From the NCBI GenBank assembly GCA_947649125.1, contig CANSQL010000020.1, forward strand, positions 1-44,678: DNA of 44,678 nucleotides, in the 5' to 3' direction. This DNA is from an uncultured Erysipelotrichaceae bacterium. Lineage in GTDB: Bacteria; Bacillota_I; Bacilli_A; Erysipelotrichales; Erysipelotrichaceae. Below, piece by piece: positions 24,629 through 31,078 of the stretch. Position numbers and translations under genes: made by a program. The number at the start of each line of letters is the position of its first letter. The first letter of the stretch is position 1. The notes beneath the pieces were generated by a model that worked only from the letters and a program-made list of their open reading frames with translations, was not told the origin of the DNA and did no database searches.

Positions 24629-26518
24629 ATGAAAATGAAAAAAATATTATTGTTATTCCTTGCTTTGTGTTTAGGTATGGGTGCTTCAGTTGCGGTACAT
24701 GCAAGTGAGCCCGAAGGATTTCAATCAAATACGGAAAACGATTCACTAAACAGTGACGGGGAATATTATGAATATCCGGCTATGGACAGTGACGGAAATA
24801 TCACGATGATCAAGATGCCTGAGGTTGATCCGCAGGCAATAGAACAAGAAAAAATCGAGAATGCAGATTCTTTCGATGTTGTTTTAACGCTGGGCAATGA
24901 CGAAACGACGATCGCTTCCTTTGACAGCTATGAGGAGGCTCAGGCAGTTGTTCAAAGACGCAGGAAGCTGAGAACTTCCGGCAGTGTTGAGGTTCAGCCT
25001 AAAACCGATTATTCCAAGATCAAATACGGCGTGGTTGATTTTCGCACGAAGCCGTCTTCACAGAATACACATTATACGGAAACTTTAACGGGTTATAACG
25101 GATATATTAACGGTACTACCGGTGCAGATGCAGCTTTTTTAGGCTATTGTACAACGGACAAGAGTAAAATCAAATTTCGTATGGCAGGAGTAGAGGGATG
25201 TGTCAGTTCAAGTGATGTTATTGTACGCGATTTTGATGATGCTTATGTCGGATTCTACCGTGTCGAGAATGGTCTTTTGCTGCACTATATTCATTCAGAT
25301 GTAACTTCACCGTATTATACAAGCACGATCAATGTCGGTGTGAAACAGGATTATATGAAGTCTAATGTTGTATACTTCAGCTTTGACGGTCATTATTTCT
25401 ATACATCCTATGAAAAAATGATCGACGATTATAAGAATGATACATATGCACATTCGATCAATCCTAAAAAACCTTATTATAATTATTTTCAATATTTATC
25501 TCATCGCAGTAAAACAAGCTTTACGGCTCAGCAATTAGATGCACATACGAAAAGTGTAGTTGATTTCGGCAGTAAAATGTTAGGACTTGGTTCGGCCTTC
25601 ATTAGTAATCAGAATAAATACGGTGCAAATGCACTGCTGATGTACGGTGTTGCGGTTAATGAATCTGCGTGGGGTACAAGTAATATTGCGAATGAAAAAA
25701 ACAATATATTCGGACATAATGCGACTGACTTTAATCCGGGTGGCAATGCCAGCAAGTATAATTCCCCGGCAGACAGTGTAGAGCATCACGCACGTGATTA
25801 TGTTTCAGACGGTTATTTAGATCCAAAGGATGTCGGGGGACGTTATTACGGCGGACATTTGGGTGATAAGGGCAGCGGAATGAATGTGAAATATGCATCC
25901 GATCCTTACTGGGGTGAAAAGGCAGCGGCTATTGCGAATATTATTTCTCAGAAAAACAGTAATAAGGATTACGGAAAGTATCAAATCGGAATCGTAGAAA
26001 AAATGACGAATCTCCAGGTGAGAAAGGATGCCAAGACATCCTCTACGGCTTTGTACAGTACAAAGAATATCGGTAACTTCCCTGTATTGATTAAGAGCAA
26101 GGTAACCGGTCAAAGCGTTAACAACAATAATGTTTGGTATAAGATTCAAAGTGACCCGACATTAAATGCAGATCGAACTGCAAGTACACAGGGAACGTAT
26201 GTGTATGATTATGATAAAATGTATGGCTATGTTTCAAGTGAATATGTAAATGTACTTCCGTATAATAACGGAAGCAACAACGATAGTGATAACAACAATA
26301 CGACCAAGCCTGAGGAAACATATAAGCTCGGTGATGTGAATGGGGATAACAAGATTACTTCAATGGACTATGTAATGATTAAAAATCACATTTTGAAAAT
26401 AAGCTCCTTATCAGGCACAGGTGCAAAAGCAGCTGATGTAAATAAGGATGGTAAAATATCCTCGATGGATTATGTAATGATTAAAAATCATATTTTAGGT
26501 ATTCAATTATTAAAATAG
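24629..26518 (+). CDS. Secreted glucosaminidase with SH3-like and type I dockerin domains
   Basis: This 629-residue protein probably cleaves the glycan strands of peptidoglycan outside the cell. A signal peptide (1-26) ends VHASEP. A beta-rich region follows (about 130-290). The GH73-type glucosaminidase domain (about 300-440) holds NESAWG with the catalytic Glu345 and NNIFGHNA. An SH3-like wall-binding segment (about 450-545) contains LQVRKDAKTSSTALY and YGYVSSEYVNVLP. After a polar linker (546-563), the C-terminus is a type I dockerin with two calcium loops, DVNGDNKITSMD (569-580) and DVNKDGKISSMD (603-614), each followed by YVMIKNHIL. Dockerins bind cohesins, so the enzyme is likely to dock on a surface scaffold. 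The next gene, 15 bases away, is a possible membrane partner. Confidence 0.88.
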   Translation: MKMKKILLLFLALCLGMGASVAVHASEPEGFQSNTENDSLNSDGEYYEYPAMDSDGNITMIKMPEVDPQAIEQEKIENADSFDVVLTLGNDETTIASFDSYEEAQAVVQRRRKLRTSGSVEVQPKTDYSKIKYGVVDFRTKPSSQNTHYTETLTGYNGYINGTTGADAAFLGYCTTDKSKIKFRMAGVEGCVSSSDVIVRDFDDAYVGFYRVENGLLLHYIHSDVTSPYYTSTINVGVKQDYMKSNVVYFSFDGHYFYTSYEKMIDDYKNDTYAHSINPKKPYYNYFQYLSHRSKTSFTAQQLDAHTKSVVDFGSKMLGLGSAFISNQNKYGANALLMYGVAVNESAWGTSNIANEKNNIFGHNATDFNPGGNASKYNSPADSVEHHARDYVSDGYLDPKDVGGRYYGGHLGDKGSGMNVKYASDPYWGEKAAAIANIISQKNSNKDYGKYQIGIVEKMTNLQVRKDAKTSSTALYSTKNIGNFPVLIKSKVTGQSVNNNNVWYKIQSDPTLNADRTASTQGTYVYDYDKMYGYVSSEYVNVLPYNNGSNNDSDNNNTTKPEETYKLGDVNGDNKITSMDYVMIKNHILKISSLSGTGAKAADVNKDGKISSMDYVMIKNHILGIQLLK

Positions 26519-26533
26519 AAAGGAAACCAGCAA

Positions 26534-28063
26534 ATGAAAAAACGATTGAATCAATTAAGCATTGTTTCAATAGGATTGTTTTTGCTTACGACTTTAACGA
26601 TTAAGGCAGCCGGTGTTGCACCCGGTGCTACGTTTACCGCTACGGCGACCTGCGGAAATATTGAAGGAAGTGTTAAGGTTACTACATCAAATGCAACATT
26701 GATCAGCGGTGATAACTGGTGTGATCGCGGTAAAACATTATCGGCAAAAGCGAAAGCAGGCTCATCAGGCACAGCTACAATAACCTTTGTGACTGTAGAT
26801 GCGACTGATGTTGTGGCAATGAAGGATGCGAGCGGTGTAACCTTGGGTAGGAAAAGCGTCAGTGTGGTGAAGCCATCTACACCATCCAATAATACCGGTG
26901 GTAATACTTCAGGCGGTAACAATACACCGAGTTATAACACTCCTAATTATGAATCACCGATAACGAATCAGCAAGAAGAGGAACCAAAATCAAGCAATGC
27001 GGATTTAAAAGAACTGAGCATATCCAAGGGTGAGCTTTCACCGGAGTTTACAAGCGATAAAACAAATTATACCGTAATGCTTGAAAAGGACGTAACATCA
27101 TTGAATGTAACCGCAAAAGCCAAAGACAGTAAGGCAACTGTGAGCGGTGACGGTGAAACAGCTTTGAAGCCGGGAAACAATGAAATCACAATTACAGTTA
27201 CCGCAGAGGACGGTACGGTAAAAAAATACGTAATCAAAGCGATGGTCGATGAATCACCGGATGTATTCGTCAATTACAACGGTAAAAATTTAGGAGTTGT
27301 AAAAAACAGTGATGATGCACAGATCCCTGCCACCTTTGAAAAAACAATGGTTTCCTTAGAAGGAAAAAATGTCGAGGCATGGCACAGTAATCTTGCGAAT
27401 TTAACGATTCTATATATGATTGACGATAAAAACGAAAAGAATTTCTATTTATACGATGATACAAGTAAAATGGTTACTTCTGTCTATAAGCCAATTGCTT
27501 TATTAGGGCGTCAGGTTGCGATTATTGATGTGCCGAAAGAATTACAAACACGCATCGGCATGCGTTTTCAAGAGGTAGAGGTAGATTCCTTAAAATTCAA
27601 CGGTTGGATCTATGAGGAACCGGATTTTGAAAATTACGTACTCCTATACCTCATGGACGATAAGGGAAAAATGCACTATTATCTTTATGAGAAAAGTGAA
27701 AACTCACTGCAGCTTTACAGCAATCAGGCAGCAGTCACACAAGCAACCTATGATAAGCTCAACGAGGATATGAAGCTGAGAATGATCGTAATGCTTGCAT
27801 TAGCCGCAACAAATGTATTGACCTTATTGCTGCTGTTGATTGTATCACTGCGCAAAAGAAAAAAGAATCGAGTAAGAATTGAACCCGCAGTAAAAAATGA
27901 GCCTTCACTCAACAAGAAAAACGAAGGCATCGAGGAAGAAATTGAACCGTTCGATTCATGGAAATACGAACCGATGCCTGAAGAAACACATACGATTCAT
28001 ATGAAGCCGTATGATGAGGAACAGCATTTGTTTGATGAAATTGATGATTTTCGTCACAGGTAA
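26534..28063 (+). CDS. Membrane-anchored Ig/cadherin-like surface protein
   Basis: The 509-residue protein has a signal peptide (1-26) and an Ig- or cohesin-like beta domain (about 27-112). A Gly/Asn/Thr-rich linker follows, then a cadherin-like beta-sandwich domain (about 155-236, LKELSISKGELSPEFTSDK to KKYVIKAM). Next is a region with two copies of an LYMIDDKxEKxxYLY-type motif (about 293-307 and 371-385), then one transmembrane helix (416-438). The tail is about 70 residues, basic then acidic, and faces the cytoplasm. It is co-transcribed with the dockerin glucosaminidase. The N-terminal domain could be the receptor for that dockerin, but it is not a clear cohesin by eye. A terminator overlaps its stop codon, so ftsA starts a new unit. 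Confidence 0.7.
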   Translation: MKKRLNQLSIVSIGLFLLTTLTIKAAGVAPGATFTATATCGNIEGSVKVTTSNATLISGDNWCDRGKTLSAKAKAGSSGTATITFVTVDATDVVAMKDASGVTLGRKSVSVVKPSTPSNNTGGNTSGGNNTPSYNTPNYESPITNQQEEEPKSSNADLKELSISKGELSPEFTSDKTNYTVMLEKDVTSLNVTAKAKDSKATVSGDGETALKPGNNEITITVTAEDGTVKKYVIKAMVDESPDVFVNYNGKNLGVVKNSDDAQIPATFEKTMVSLEGKNVEAWHSNLANLTILYMIDDKNEKNFYLYDDTSKMVTSVYKPIALLGRQVAIIDVPKELQTRIGMRFQEVEVDSLKFNGWIYEEPDFENYVLLYLMDDKGKMHYYLYEKSENSLQLYSNQAAVTQATYDKLNEDMKLRMIVMLALAATNVLTLLLLLIVSLRKRKKNRVRIEPAVKNEPSLNKKNEGIEEEIEPFDSWKYEPMPEETHTIHMKPYDEEQHLFDEIDDFRHR

Positions 28064-28088
28064 TCACTAAAAATGATTACCTTTTTTT
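28059..28088 (+). terminator. Terminator after the membrane-anchored surface protein
   Basis: GGTAATCA (28059-28066) pairs with TGATTACC (28074-28081) around a 7-base loop and is followed by seven T. The stop codon of the gene is within the left arm. Confidence 0.85.
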
Positions 28089-28227: not shown

Positions 28228-29481
28228 ATGAAGCGCAAACAAATATTCGCTGCACTTGAAATAGCGGATCATGAAGTACGACTTGTTGTCGGTGAATTTC
28301 ATGAAACGAGATTTAATATATTACGTGTTGAGCGAGTAAAAACAACCGGAATCACCAACAAGGTCGTTGTGGATGAACAAAATATCGTAGGTGCAGTGAT
28401 GAAAGCAGTTCAAAATGCCTCTACCGTATTAGGCTATAAAATAGAACGTGTTTTATTGGCAATACCGTCAATTGACGTCACTCGCTTTAATAAAAAAGTG
28501 AATGTCTTTGTCGAGGACGGAAGCAAACGTGTACGCTTATCCCATATCCAAAGCGGTATCAATGAAGCAATTTCATATAAGCCGGATGAAGATTTAGAAC
28601 TTGTAAATATCGGCTGCATCAAATACATAACCAACGGTATCACTTCAAGAAAAATGCCGTTAAATGAGGTTTGTGATGTCTTGACGATGAATATCGATCT
28701 GCTTTATGCGAATAAAGATATAGTTTATTCCTATGCACGATGCGCAGAGAAATCAGGGCTTGAGATTATCGATATCTGTTTAGATTCGTATGCGATTGCA
28801 GAGGAAGCCGCAATCTTTGAACAAACAGTGGATAAATATGTGGTCTTAATTGATTTGGAGCGACAAAATACAACACTTTCTTTATTTACGCATGGTAAAC
28901 TTGTAAACTGTGAGGTTTTAGAGGGCGGTTACGGAGATTGGCTGTCACCGTTAAAGGATAAGTACAATCTGCCGCTTGATGTCGGCTTCCGTTTAATTCA
29001 AAACACCTGTGCACTGGAGGAAAAAGAGGTCGGTGATGCGACCGTGTATATATGGTCTGAAGCAGGTACCTCTCGCCAAATCAGTGAACGTGATGTTTAT
29101 AAATGCGTTATCGATCCGATCAATGAGTGGATACAAATGATTAACGAAACATGTCAGCCGATTATTGACAGCGGCAATGTCCGCTATATTTTGACCGGTG
29201 AGGGTTTAGAGATTCAACAGATCGAAAGACTGGCAAAGGAGCTGAATGCACAATCGCAGGTATATGTTCCGCAGACCATCGGTGCACGAGATTGCGGATT
29301 GGTAACCTGTCTTGGCTTATTCTACAGTTGGAAATCACAGCTGGCAGTACGCAAGGATGAGCGAACAAGCTGTGATCAGCGTGATGTAGAAAAGGCAGTT
29401 GAAGGTGTCAATAAGCCGACAGTTGATGATGAAAGCGGCTTTACCAAAAAACTAAAGAGTATGTTGCTGAGCGACAAATAA
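28228..29481 (+). CDS. ftsA: Cell division protein FtsA, divergent
   Basis: FtsA is the actin-like protein that anchors FtsZ to the membrane and recruits the division machinery. The 417-residue protein starts with AALEIADHEVRLVVGEF, matching the usual GLDIGTSKxxxxIGE segment. It has the SHI domain region with VLLAIPS, and ends in a basic amphipathic stretch FTKKLKSMLLSDK that resembles the membrane-targeting helix. The nucleotide motifs are eroded: phosphate-2 reads LIDLERQNTTLSL without the glycines, and the adenosine motif is LTGEGLE. Identity rests on these remnants and on ftsZ 25 bases downstream. The ribosome binding site is AAGGGGG. Confidence 0.82.
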   Translation: MKRKQIFAALEIADHEVRLVVGEFHETRFNILRVERVKTTGITNKVVVDEQNIVGAVMKAVQNASTVLGYKIERVLLAIPSIDVTRFNKKVNVFVEDGSKRVRLSHIQSGINEAISYKPDEDLELVNIGCIKYITNGITSRKMPLNEVCDVLTMNIDLLYANKDIVYSYARCAEKSGLEIIDICLDSYAIAEEAAIFEQTVDKYVVLIDLERQNTTLSLFTHGKLVNCEVLEGGYGDWLSPLKDKYNLPLDVGFRLIQNTCALEEKEVGDATVYIWSEAGTSRQISERDVYKCVIDPINEWIQMINETCQPIIDSGNVRYILTGEGLEIQQIERLAKELNAQSQVYVPQTIGARDCGLVTCLGLFYSWKSQLAVRKDERTSCDQRDVEKAVEGVNKPTVDDESGFTKKLKSMLLSDK

Positions 29482-29506: not shown

Positions 29507-30622
29507 ATGAGTGATTTACAATTTGAACAGGTGGCAAAAATTAAAGTATTCGGTATCGGCGGCGGTGGCTGTAATGCAGTAAATCGCATGGTTTCCGAAG
29601 GCGTTAAAGGTGTTGAGTTCTATGTAGCGAACACCGATCTTCAGGTACTGAATCAATCTCCGGTCGATAATAAAATCATATTAGGCAGAGAAATCACCAA
29701 GGGTCTTGGGGCCGGAGCCGATCCTGAGGTAGGACGTCGTGCCGCACAGGAAAACGAAAGCGAAATCAGAGAAGCAATCAAGGGCAGCGATATGGTATTT
29801 ATCACTGCCGGATTAGGCGGCGGAACCGGAACCGGTGCAGCTCCTTTATTTGCCAAAATTGCGAAAGAGGAAGGCGCATTGACCGTTGCGATCGTCACTA
29901 AGCCGTTTAGCTTTGAAGGTAAAAAGCGCCTATTAAGCGCAGACAGCGGATTTGCGGAACTGCGTGAATACGTAGACTCCATGATTATCGTTTCAAACAA
30001 TAACCTGATCGAGGTAATCGGCAGAAAGCCGTTGGTAGAAGCATTCCAAGCGGCAGATAATGTCCTTCGTCAGGGTGTACAAACAATTACCGATTTGATC
30101 GCTGTTCCTGCATTGATCAACTTGGATTTTGCCGATGTAAAAACAATCATGGAAAATCAGGGCAGTGCCTTGATCGGCATCGGTATGGCAGAGGGCGAAG
30201 ACAAAGCACGCGCAGCCGCAGAAAAAGCGATCCAATCACCGTTGTTGGAAGCACAGATTACCGGAGCACGCAATGCGATCGTAAATATCACCGGCGGAGA
30301 AAGCATTACCTTATTTGATGCTGAAGACGCAATGGCATTAGTCAGAGAAGCGGCAGGAAACGATATCGATGCAATTTTCGGTGTAGCGATCAATGAAAAA
30401 CTGGGCGATTCCATTATCGTCACTGTAATTGCGACAGGCTTCGATCAGCCGAAGGATAATATTATCAAGGCAGTACCGAAGGCAAATGCGACAGCCAATT
30501 TCGCTCAGCCGCAGCCTAAGCCTGTAACTGCACCTAAGCAGGTTGAGGCACCACGCTATCAGGAACCGATTATTGAAGATGACGAGGATGAAGGAACAAT
30601 TCCGCGTTTCTTTAAGCGCTAA
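29507..30622 (+). CDS. ftsZ: Cell division GTPase FtsZ
   Basis: FtsZ polymerises into the cytokinetic ring. The 371-residue protein has GIGGGGCNAVNRM at the start, NTDLQVL, the tubulin signature GGGTGTGAAP, the T7-loop segment NLDFADVKTIM and the C-terminal peptide IPRFFKR that binds FtsA. The linker before the C-terminal peptide is short, Pro/Gln-rich and then acidic. A GAGGAAAGAG site precedes the ATG. The pair ftsA-ftsZ is here apart from the mur genes and minCD, since the flanks are unrelated. Confidence 0.97.
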   Translation: MSDLQFEQVAKIKVFGIGGGGCNAVNRMVSEGVKGVEFYVANTDLQVLNQSPVDNKIILGREITKGLGAGADPEVGRRAAQENESEIREAIKGSDMVFITAGLGGGTGTGAAPLFAKIAKEEGALTVAIVTKPFSFEGKKRLLSADSGFAELREYVDSMIIVSNNNLIEVIGRKPLVEAFQAADNVLRQGVQTITDLIAVPALINLDFADVKTIMENQGSALIGIGMAEGEDKARAAAEKAIQSPLLEAQITGARNAIVNITGGESITLFDAEDAMALVREAAGNDIDAIFGVAINEKLGDSIIVTVIATGFDQPKDNIIKAVPKANATANFAQPQPKPVTAPKQVEAPRYQEPIIEDDEDEGTIPRFFKR

Positions 30623-30625
30623 ATC

Positions 30626-31078
30626 ATGAAATTTATCTATATCGATGATACCTATCTTAAAAGCTCTCCGTTTTTAGAAACGATGAAGCATCGTATGTTT
30701 TCTTTCTGTGAGCGTGAGCATATTTCTCATATTCTGCTTTCAATGCCTGATAAAAGAAACAAGGAAGCAGCTGCTTTTCTTGAACAATGTCGAAAGCGTG
30801 ACATTTCATTGATTGAAAGTCCTGCTGTTATTGACTGGGGCAACTTTCAGGGGATATTGACACCGACAGCCTTTTATATCAAGGACGGTACGATTCTGTA
30901 TCCTTACAGCGGCAGTGCATTATACGGTAACAGTACGTATAAGCAATATCAGCGTGTTTACTTTGAAATGTTTCTGACACATGATTATAATTTTAATCCT
31001 GATTCCTTAGAAAATGAATTAGGTGAATTGCTTCATGATATTCTGCATTTACATAAGAAAACGAATCACTACAATTAG
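30626..31078 (+). CDS. Small protein of unknown function coupled to ftsZ
   Basis: The 150-residue soluble protein starts 3 bases after the ftsZ stop with no ribosome binding site of its own, so it is likely to be translated by coupling. No signal peptide or membrane segment is present. The sequence runs from MKFIYIDDTYLKSSPF through SHILLSMPDKRNKEAAAFLEQCRKRDISLIES to an acidic C-terminus ending HKKTNHYN. The first part has an alternating strand/helix pattern like a small alpha/beta domain. I recognise no family. Its position suggests a division or wall role, but that is inferred from context. A terminator follows. Confidence 0.65.
   Translation: MKFIYIDDTYLKSSPFLETMKHRMFSFCEREHISHILLSMPDKRNKEAAAFLEQCRKRDISLIESPAVIDWGNFQGILTPTAFYIKDGTILYPYSGSALYGNSTYKQYQRVYFEMFLTHDYNFNPDSLENELGELLHDILHLHKKTNHYN

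Follow-up and report, generated by a model that had tools for sequence, protein, structure and literature searches.

What is known so far of cohesin-dockerin pairs concerns mainly the assembly of cellulosomes and of a few glycosidase complexes. In Clostridium thermocellum, cellulosomal type I pairs and surface-anchoring cohesins (OlpA, ScaF/SdbA) combine a dockerin with two calcium loops, which carries matching dipeptides in both repeats, with a cohesin-type receptor of the cell. Glycosidase pairs of Clostridium perfringens (NagJ/GH84, where GH denotes glycoside hydrolase family, and sialidases; PDB 2jh2, 2vo8) rely on few or single modules outside cellulosomes and join secreted glycosidases to each other; single-module pairs are known in glycan degraders (PMC12997984). 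In ruminococcal cellulosomes, dockerin-bearing cell-wall hydrolases have been noted along with the idea of a 'lyticome' (PMC6403190). Here, we analyse a dockerin-bearing glucosaminidase (GluDoc) and the membrane protein encoded directly downstream (P2) in a stretch of 44,678 nucleotides from an uncultured Erysipelotrichaceae bacterium (contig CANSQL010000020.1), in the following called the window.

We propose, with a probability of about 85%, that P2 serves the wall hydrolase as a dedicated cohesin-type receptor, bound to the membrane and offering one site, and that the pair forms a conserved operon-like unit. Compared to the Clostridium thermocellum systems, such a receptor would bind a peptidoglycan enzyme via a single site in a shortened domain and would be held by a membrane helix instead of SLH domains or a scaffoldin, with the receptor and enzyme genes side by side. 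In contrast to the Clostridium perfringens pairs, GluDoc would have a membrane protein as its partner and the cell wall as its substrate. Ruminococcal wall hydrolases share the dockerin with GluDoc but are thought to join a scaffoldin, while here we propose a dedicated one-site membrane receptor, and many genomes encode no other Pfam cohesin. The catalytic domain resembles that of LytB/GH73 endo-beta-N-acetylglucosaminidases; LytB attaches to the wall through choline-binding repeats, whereas the attachment module of GluDoc is a dockerin. In the open literature, we found no report of this pair, nor of a wall hydrolase that has a membrane cohesin dedicated to it, which is no proof of novelty.

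If our proposal is true, the plug-and-socket contact of cellulosomes keeps a wall-cutting enzyme at the membrane of the very bacterium that makes it in two Erysipelotrichales-type gut families and a third family with small genomes. This would offer a simple answer to how an enzyme with scarcely any wall-anchoring motif stays with the cell. Dozens of naturally diversified, minimal and mutually coded dockerin-receptor pairs would furthermore be at hand for specificity studies and as orthogonal protein couplers.

Domain composition of GluDoc and P2

The gap between both genes is 15 bp. Their features, given with expectation values (E) of Pfam matches and partial correlations (r) with the N-domain, are as follows.

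24629-26518 (+): GluDoc, dockerin-bearing GH73/LytB-like glucosaminidase, 629 residues, signal peptide at about residues 1-25
25595-25939 (+): Glucosaminidase domain PF01832 of GluDoc, residues 323-437, E 2.6e-16, motif NESAWG...NNIFGHNA
26327-26497 (+): type I dockerin of GluDoc, residues 567-623, two calcium loops, PF00404 E 1.1e-18
26360-26365 (+): recognition dipeptide S578-M579 of repeat 1 (dockerin positions 11/12), partial r 0.36 and 0.29
26462-26467 (+): recognition dipeptide S612-M613 of repeat 2, partial r 0.32 and 0.26
26534-28063 (+): P2, single-pass membrane protein, 509 residues, with signal peptide, proposed dockerin receptor
26606-26878 (+): N-domain of P2, residues 25-115, putatively cohesin-derived beta sandwich, proposed dockerin-binding module
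27005-27238 (+): Cadherin-like beta sandwich PF12733 of P2, residues 158-235, E 6.9e-11
27242-27721 (+): membrane-proximal ectodomain of P2, residues 237-396, family-specific; its own profile retrieves the protein family from three taxonomic families within the class
27782-27850 (+): membrane helix of P2, residues ~417-439, predicted from sequence
27851-28060 (+): cytoplasmic tail of P2, basic then acidic; a EEEIEPFDSWKYE-like motif is kept only inside the genus (alignment)

GluDoc can be classified as a GH73/LytB-like glucosaminidase, for which peptidoglycan hydrolysis is predicted, given the PF01832 match together with the conserved glutamate motif (NESAWG) and given that the best PDB sequence matches of the catalytic domain are LytB-type chains (7pj3/4q2w, E ~1e-20). 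A plasmid search with GluDoc returned matches to the catalytic domain only. Apart from a weak SH3-type match (SH3_3, residues 462-540), the protein shows no recognised wall-anchoring motif. The initial annotation's claim that GluDoc ends in a complete type I dockerin is borne out, i.e., the domain passes the curated PF00404 cut-off by far (67.6 vs. 22.9 bits) and both calcium loops are complete in sequence (D569-N571-D573-D580 and D603-N605-D607-D614). The dockerin model deviates by 0.7-1.5 Å from solved dockerins (2ccl, 1ohz and 4uyq at 0.7-1.3 Å).

P2 consists of a signal peptide, the N-domain, a low-complexity linker rich in Gly/Asn/Ser/Thr, the Cadherin-like domain, the beta-rich ectodomain, one helix and the tail. 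We thus confirm the earlier description of a second gene 15 bases downstream that encodes a signal peptide, a cadherin-like domain, one membrane helix and an acidic tail, the latter being basic first and then acidic. Outside the genus, the aligned tails are short and unrelated. The whole P2 sequence has no match among PDB chains. Within the N-domain, C40 and C63 (window positions 26651-26653 and 26720-26722; TCGNIEG ... NWCDRG) co-occur in one subgroup, where they may form a disulfide; the sequence of the first strand is lost in this subgroup.

Pairing and co-variation of the dockerin with P2

Relatives of P2 are present in 27/60 near relatives, and strict family members in 47/209 order-level genomes. 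For 50 of the 51 assessable order-level P2 loci with an N-domain, a dockerin gene is located directly upstream on the same strand (gap of -17 to +23 bp); in the single exception, a dockerin is weakly matched where the contig begins, immediately before P2. The pair is found in many genomic contexts, with named carriers including Traorella massiliensis and Beduini massiliensis, and the enzyme part varies (13 glucosaminidases, one GH25 and two metallo-beta-lactamase-type proteins among 18 scanned partners). That is, the constant elements of these loci are the dockerin and P2. Outside the order, the pair occurs in a family with genomes of ~1-1.6 Mb, with the dockerin upstream in ~17/19 loci of the class sample, and 11/12 Bacilli loci found by pattern in metagenome-assembled genomes show the same arrangement. 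One locus (L127, G612:C3) is inverted, i.e., a 978-residue dockerin protein follows P2 with an overlap of 14 bp.

Presence and loss of both partners also coincide. At the order level, PF00404 is matched in 44/47 P2 genomes compared to 51/162 other genomes (Fisher p 6e-15). No PF00963 (Cohesin) match is observed in 25 of these 44 genomes with P2 and PF00404, such that P2 is the only recognised partner candidate there. None of the three P2 genes without N-domain (L051, L052, L086; only genes not at a contig end were counted) has a dockerin neighbour, and in two of their genomes, G041 and G042, PF00404 is not matched even when E is relaxed to 0.1.

Via its family, the N-domain can be linked to cohesins by homology. 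In another family, the N-domains of 7/9 scanned P2 proteins pass the Pfam Cohesin cut-off (L173, L178, L180, L184, L189, L190, L191), and these proteins share the membrane-proximal ectodomain and the gene position. We compared a profile of these Pfam-cohesin N-domains (A11) with one of the Pfam-negative N-domains (A3) using hhalign and obtained a probability of 97% (E 4.6e-11) over 92/96 columns. The best PDB sequence matches of A3 are cohesins (6kg8/6kgc, E 0.004), and A11 matches many PDB cohesins (best E 1.5e-4). With the cohesin-type N-domains of the more distant L090-L098, A3-type N-domains align over 34 columns only (81%). Pfam cohesins are also the N-domains of more distant proteins encoded directly downstream of dockerin genes (G173, G174, G212:C249).

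To quantify co-variation, we computed mirror-tree distances on 50 dockerin-P2 pairs. The N-domain correlates with the dockerin (r 0.670) more strongly than with P2's own other domains (0.427, 0.472). Controlling for the latter and for the catalytic part still leaves a partial r of 0.529, which was reached in 0/5000 permutations. When thinning to 40 pairs, the excess over the own-protein correlations is kept in every 70% subsample, and the excess over the dockerin-catalytic correlation failed in 15% of them. The dockerin columns that best track the N-domain are S578, S612 and M579, with M613 in fifth place, i.e., the columns of positions 11/12 stand out among all variable dockerin columns (p 5e-4). 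In published structures, these positions are pivotal in cohesin recognition (PMC5141474; PMC5301203). In 75% of cases, the two repeats of a protein carry an identical recognition dipeptide, compared to 9% between proteins, which would be expected if both dockerin faces must fit one partner.

GluDoc and P2 share a reading frame, such that reading through the single TAG yields one chain of dockerin, signal-peptide linker and N-domain, which we use as a co-folding device and not as a claim about translation. Given an alignment including 18 paired-locus rows (the window and 17 others), AlphaFold2 folds both domains with a predicted local distance difference test score (pLDDT) of 96-98 and the linker with ~50. 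The predicted template modelling score (pTM) is 0.77; unplaced domains would yield ~0.5 and a placement error of ~2 Å about 0.77. The model places the dockerin against the N-domain with a confident fold and is, like the co-variation, indirect evidence for the predicted binding.

Based on adjacency, loss pattern, co-variation at the recognition residues, joint fold and homology to the Pfam cohesins of its family, P2 is very probably the partner of the dockerin. The tether model of the initial annotation is supported to this extent, while the division role it included is not. In the proposed mechanism, the operon-like unit would produce a secreted cell-wall glucosaminidase along with its own membrane receptor. 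P2 would be anchored by its helix, with two beta domains and the flexible linker serving as a stalk that presents the single N-domain. The C-terminal dockerin, folded around calcium, would dock on this domain with either of its two near-identical repeats, using positions 11/12 (and 18). The enzyme would thereby stay on the outside of the membrane, beneath or within the wall, from where it could trim peptidoglycan and yet not escape into the medium. From the LytB-like catalytic domain alone, a purpose in remodelling the wall or in separating daughter cells, as LytB-type enzymes do, is plausible.

Evidence against the proposal and alternative explanations

Several observations weigh against this reading. 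The N-domain of the window protein itself (~25-115) has no Pfam match, i.e., the PF00963 cut-off is not reached. Its AlphaFold2 model (pLDDT 96.9, pTM 0.85) is a compact six-strand sandwich, compared to nine strands in the cohesin jelly-roll, and is nearer to bacterial immunoglobulin (Ig)-like domains than to classical cohesins. That is, generic Ig-like sandwiches come first in a structural search of the PDB and C. perfringens cohesin modules lower (2jh2, Z 5.5), so the fold comparison suggested by the initial annotation yields a small Ig-like sandwich whose closest structures are not classical cohesins. Since family homology is present but the Pfam match is absent and the model is Ig-like, we term the N-domain cohesin-derived on sequence grounds but do not count it among the PF00963 members. 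For the cohesin part of the earlier label (Ig/cohesin-like domain), support comes from the family members and not from a PF00963 match of the window protein itself. Furthermore, the joint fold was obtained from one artificial chain without an inter-domain error matrix or a mismatched-pair control, and the signal peptide carries no signal as a linkage control for co-variation. In one genome (L190, G588), a P2 with a Pfam-cohesin N-domain adjoins a glucosaminidase-like gene without dockerin, and no dockerin was found genome-wide.

Also to be counted on this side is that dockerin and N-domain adjoin in the DNA, with a stop codon and the signal peptide between them, such that exchange as one piece could raise their correlation. 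Both might then travel together as one recombining cassette at the gene junction and not bind at all. We consider this very improbable, since neighbouring segments within either gene show weaker correlations (0.43 for N-domain and Cadherin-like domain, 0.52 for dockerin and catalytic domain; for the glucosaminidase subset, 0.27 and 0.30), both repeats carry the signal at positions 11/12, and loss of the N-domain accompanies absence of the dockerin. The own genome's only Pfam cohesin, located in a 2222-residue GH31/F5-8C/FIVAR protein, is a possible alternative partner as well. The dockerin would then bind this or another cohesin and P2 would be a mere neighbouring surface protein, in line with the pairwise GH-GH cohesin-dockerin assemblies described for host-glycan degraders (PMC12997984). 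This scenario is improbable given the 25/44 genomes lacking a PF00963 match, the co-variation of the dockerin with the P2 N-domain at the recognition residues and the different recognition residues of the genome's other dockerin, which belongs to an M60 peptidase.

With regard to the division machinery, P2 could recruit the glucosaminidase to the septum via FtsA/FtsZ using its cytoplasmic tail. The features following P2 are the following.

28058-28082 (+): hairpin and T run, terminator-like, in the interval between P2 and ftsA; absent from the initial annotation
28228-29481: ftsA
29507-30622: ftsZ

LytB separates pneumococcal daughter cells, and the LytB-like catalytic domain fits such a role. 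In addition, ftsA-ftsZ follow P2 in the genus (the window and five relatives; absent in G004) and in six further genomes (G012, G020, G128, G191, G077, G078). Outside these, the link is missing, i.e., in most genera of the family, in all loci of the order's second family and in the sampled loci of other orders. Together with the terminator predicted between P2 and ftsA and with the lack of tail conservation past the genus, this makes septal recruitment unlikely. The pair does not show the conserved linkage expected of a division-cluster member and, given the predicted terminator, probably not the shared transcription either, and the division role assigned to it by the initial annotation is not borne out. 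Only some genera have the four-gene order; what is conserved is the gene pair and not its linkage to ftsA-ftsZ.

Further candidate pairs and neighbouring genes

The own genome encodes two Pfam dockerins (GluDoc and a 1721-residue M60 peptidase) and one Pfam cohesin (the GH31 protein), which is no cellulosome in the sense of a multi-cohesin scaffoldin with several dockerin enzymes. The GH31 protein (G000:C5:37553-44221; L053 1554-8222) also contains F5/8C, FIVAR and fn3 domains, and its cohesin is preceded by a half-dockerin-like stretch, FGDINFNGISDVYDYAFTAFN. The M60 peptidase (G000:C4:41867-47922; L054 868-6923, minus strand) carries an internal dockerin at residues 218-269. With an overlap of one base, its gene is followed by that of a 296-residue protein composed of a signal peptide, a beta-rich domain, a linker and a membrane helix. 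The same layout is seen in four congeners and in two further genera (G002, G005, G006, G004, G192, G064); in two of the congeners (L140, L141), the M60 partner's helix at the C-terminus falls below the hydropathy threshold. A comparison of the partner's beta domain with PDB sequences found no cohesin. The M60 peptidase and its membrane partner may be a second dockerin-receptor pair, which hints that one dockerin per membrane partner may be a general habit here. Perhaps a third, unrelated pair is given by L148 (G080:C6, 3583-8000), where a 1122-residue dockerin protein is followed after 14 bp by a 344-residue membrane protein whose N-domain looks cohesin-like by eye.

Since the recognition residues are lineage-specific, with SM, PA, GV, TL and AN among the recognition types, the pairs should be private. 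We lean towards the view that host-associated Bacilli have a widespread system outside cellulosomes, where every dockerin enzyme is encoded next to its own one-site membrane cohesin with a lineage-specific private code. It would serve mainly the bacteria's own wall hydrolases, plus the M60 peptidase with its second, unrelated membrane partner.

Beside GluDoc, a ribosomal protein L28 gene (23936-24127, minus strand; read by eye) is flanked on its other side by a thiamine pyrophosphokinase gene. Directly 3' of ftsZ, an open reading frame of 150 residues (30626-31078, plus strand) without Pfam match is shared by some members of the genus and can also be recognised in G012 and G020.

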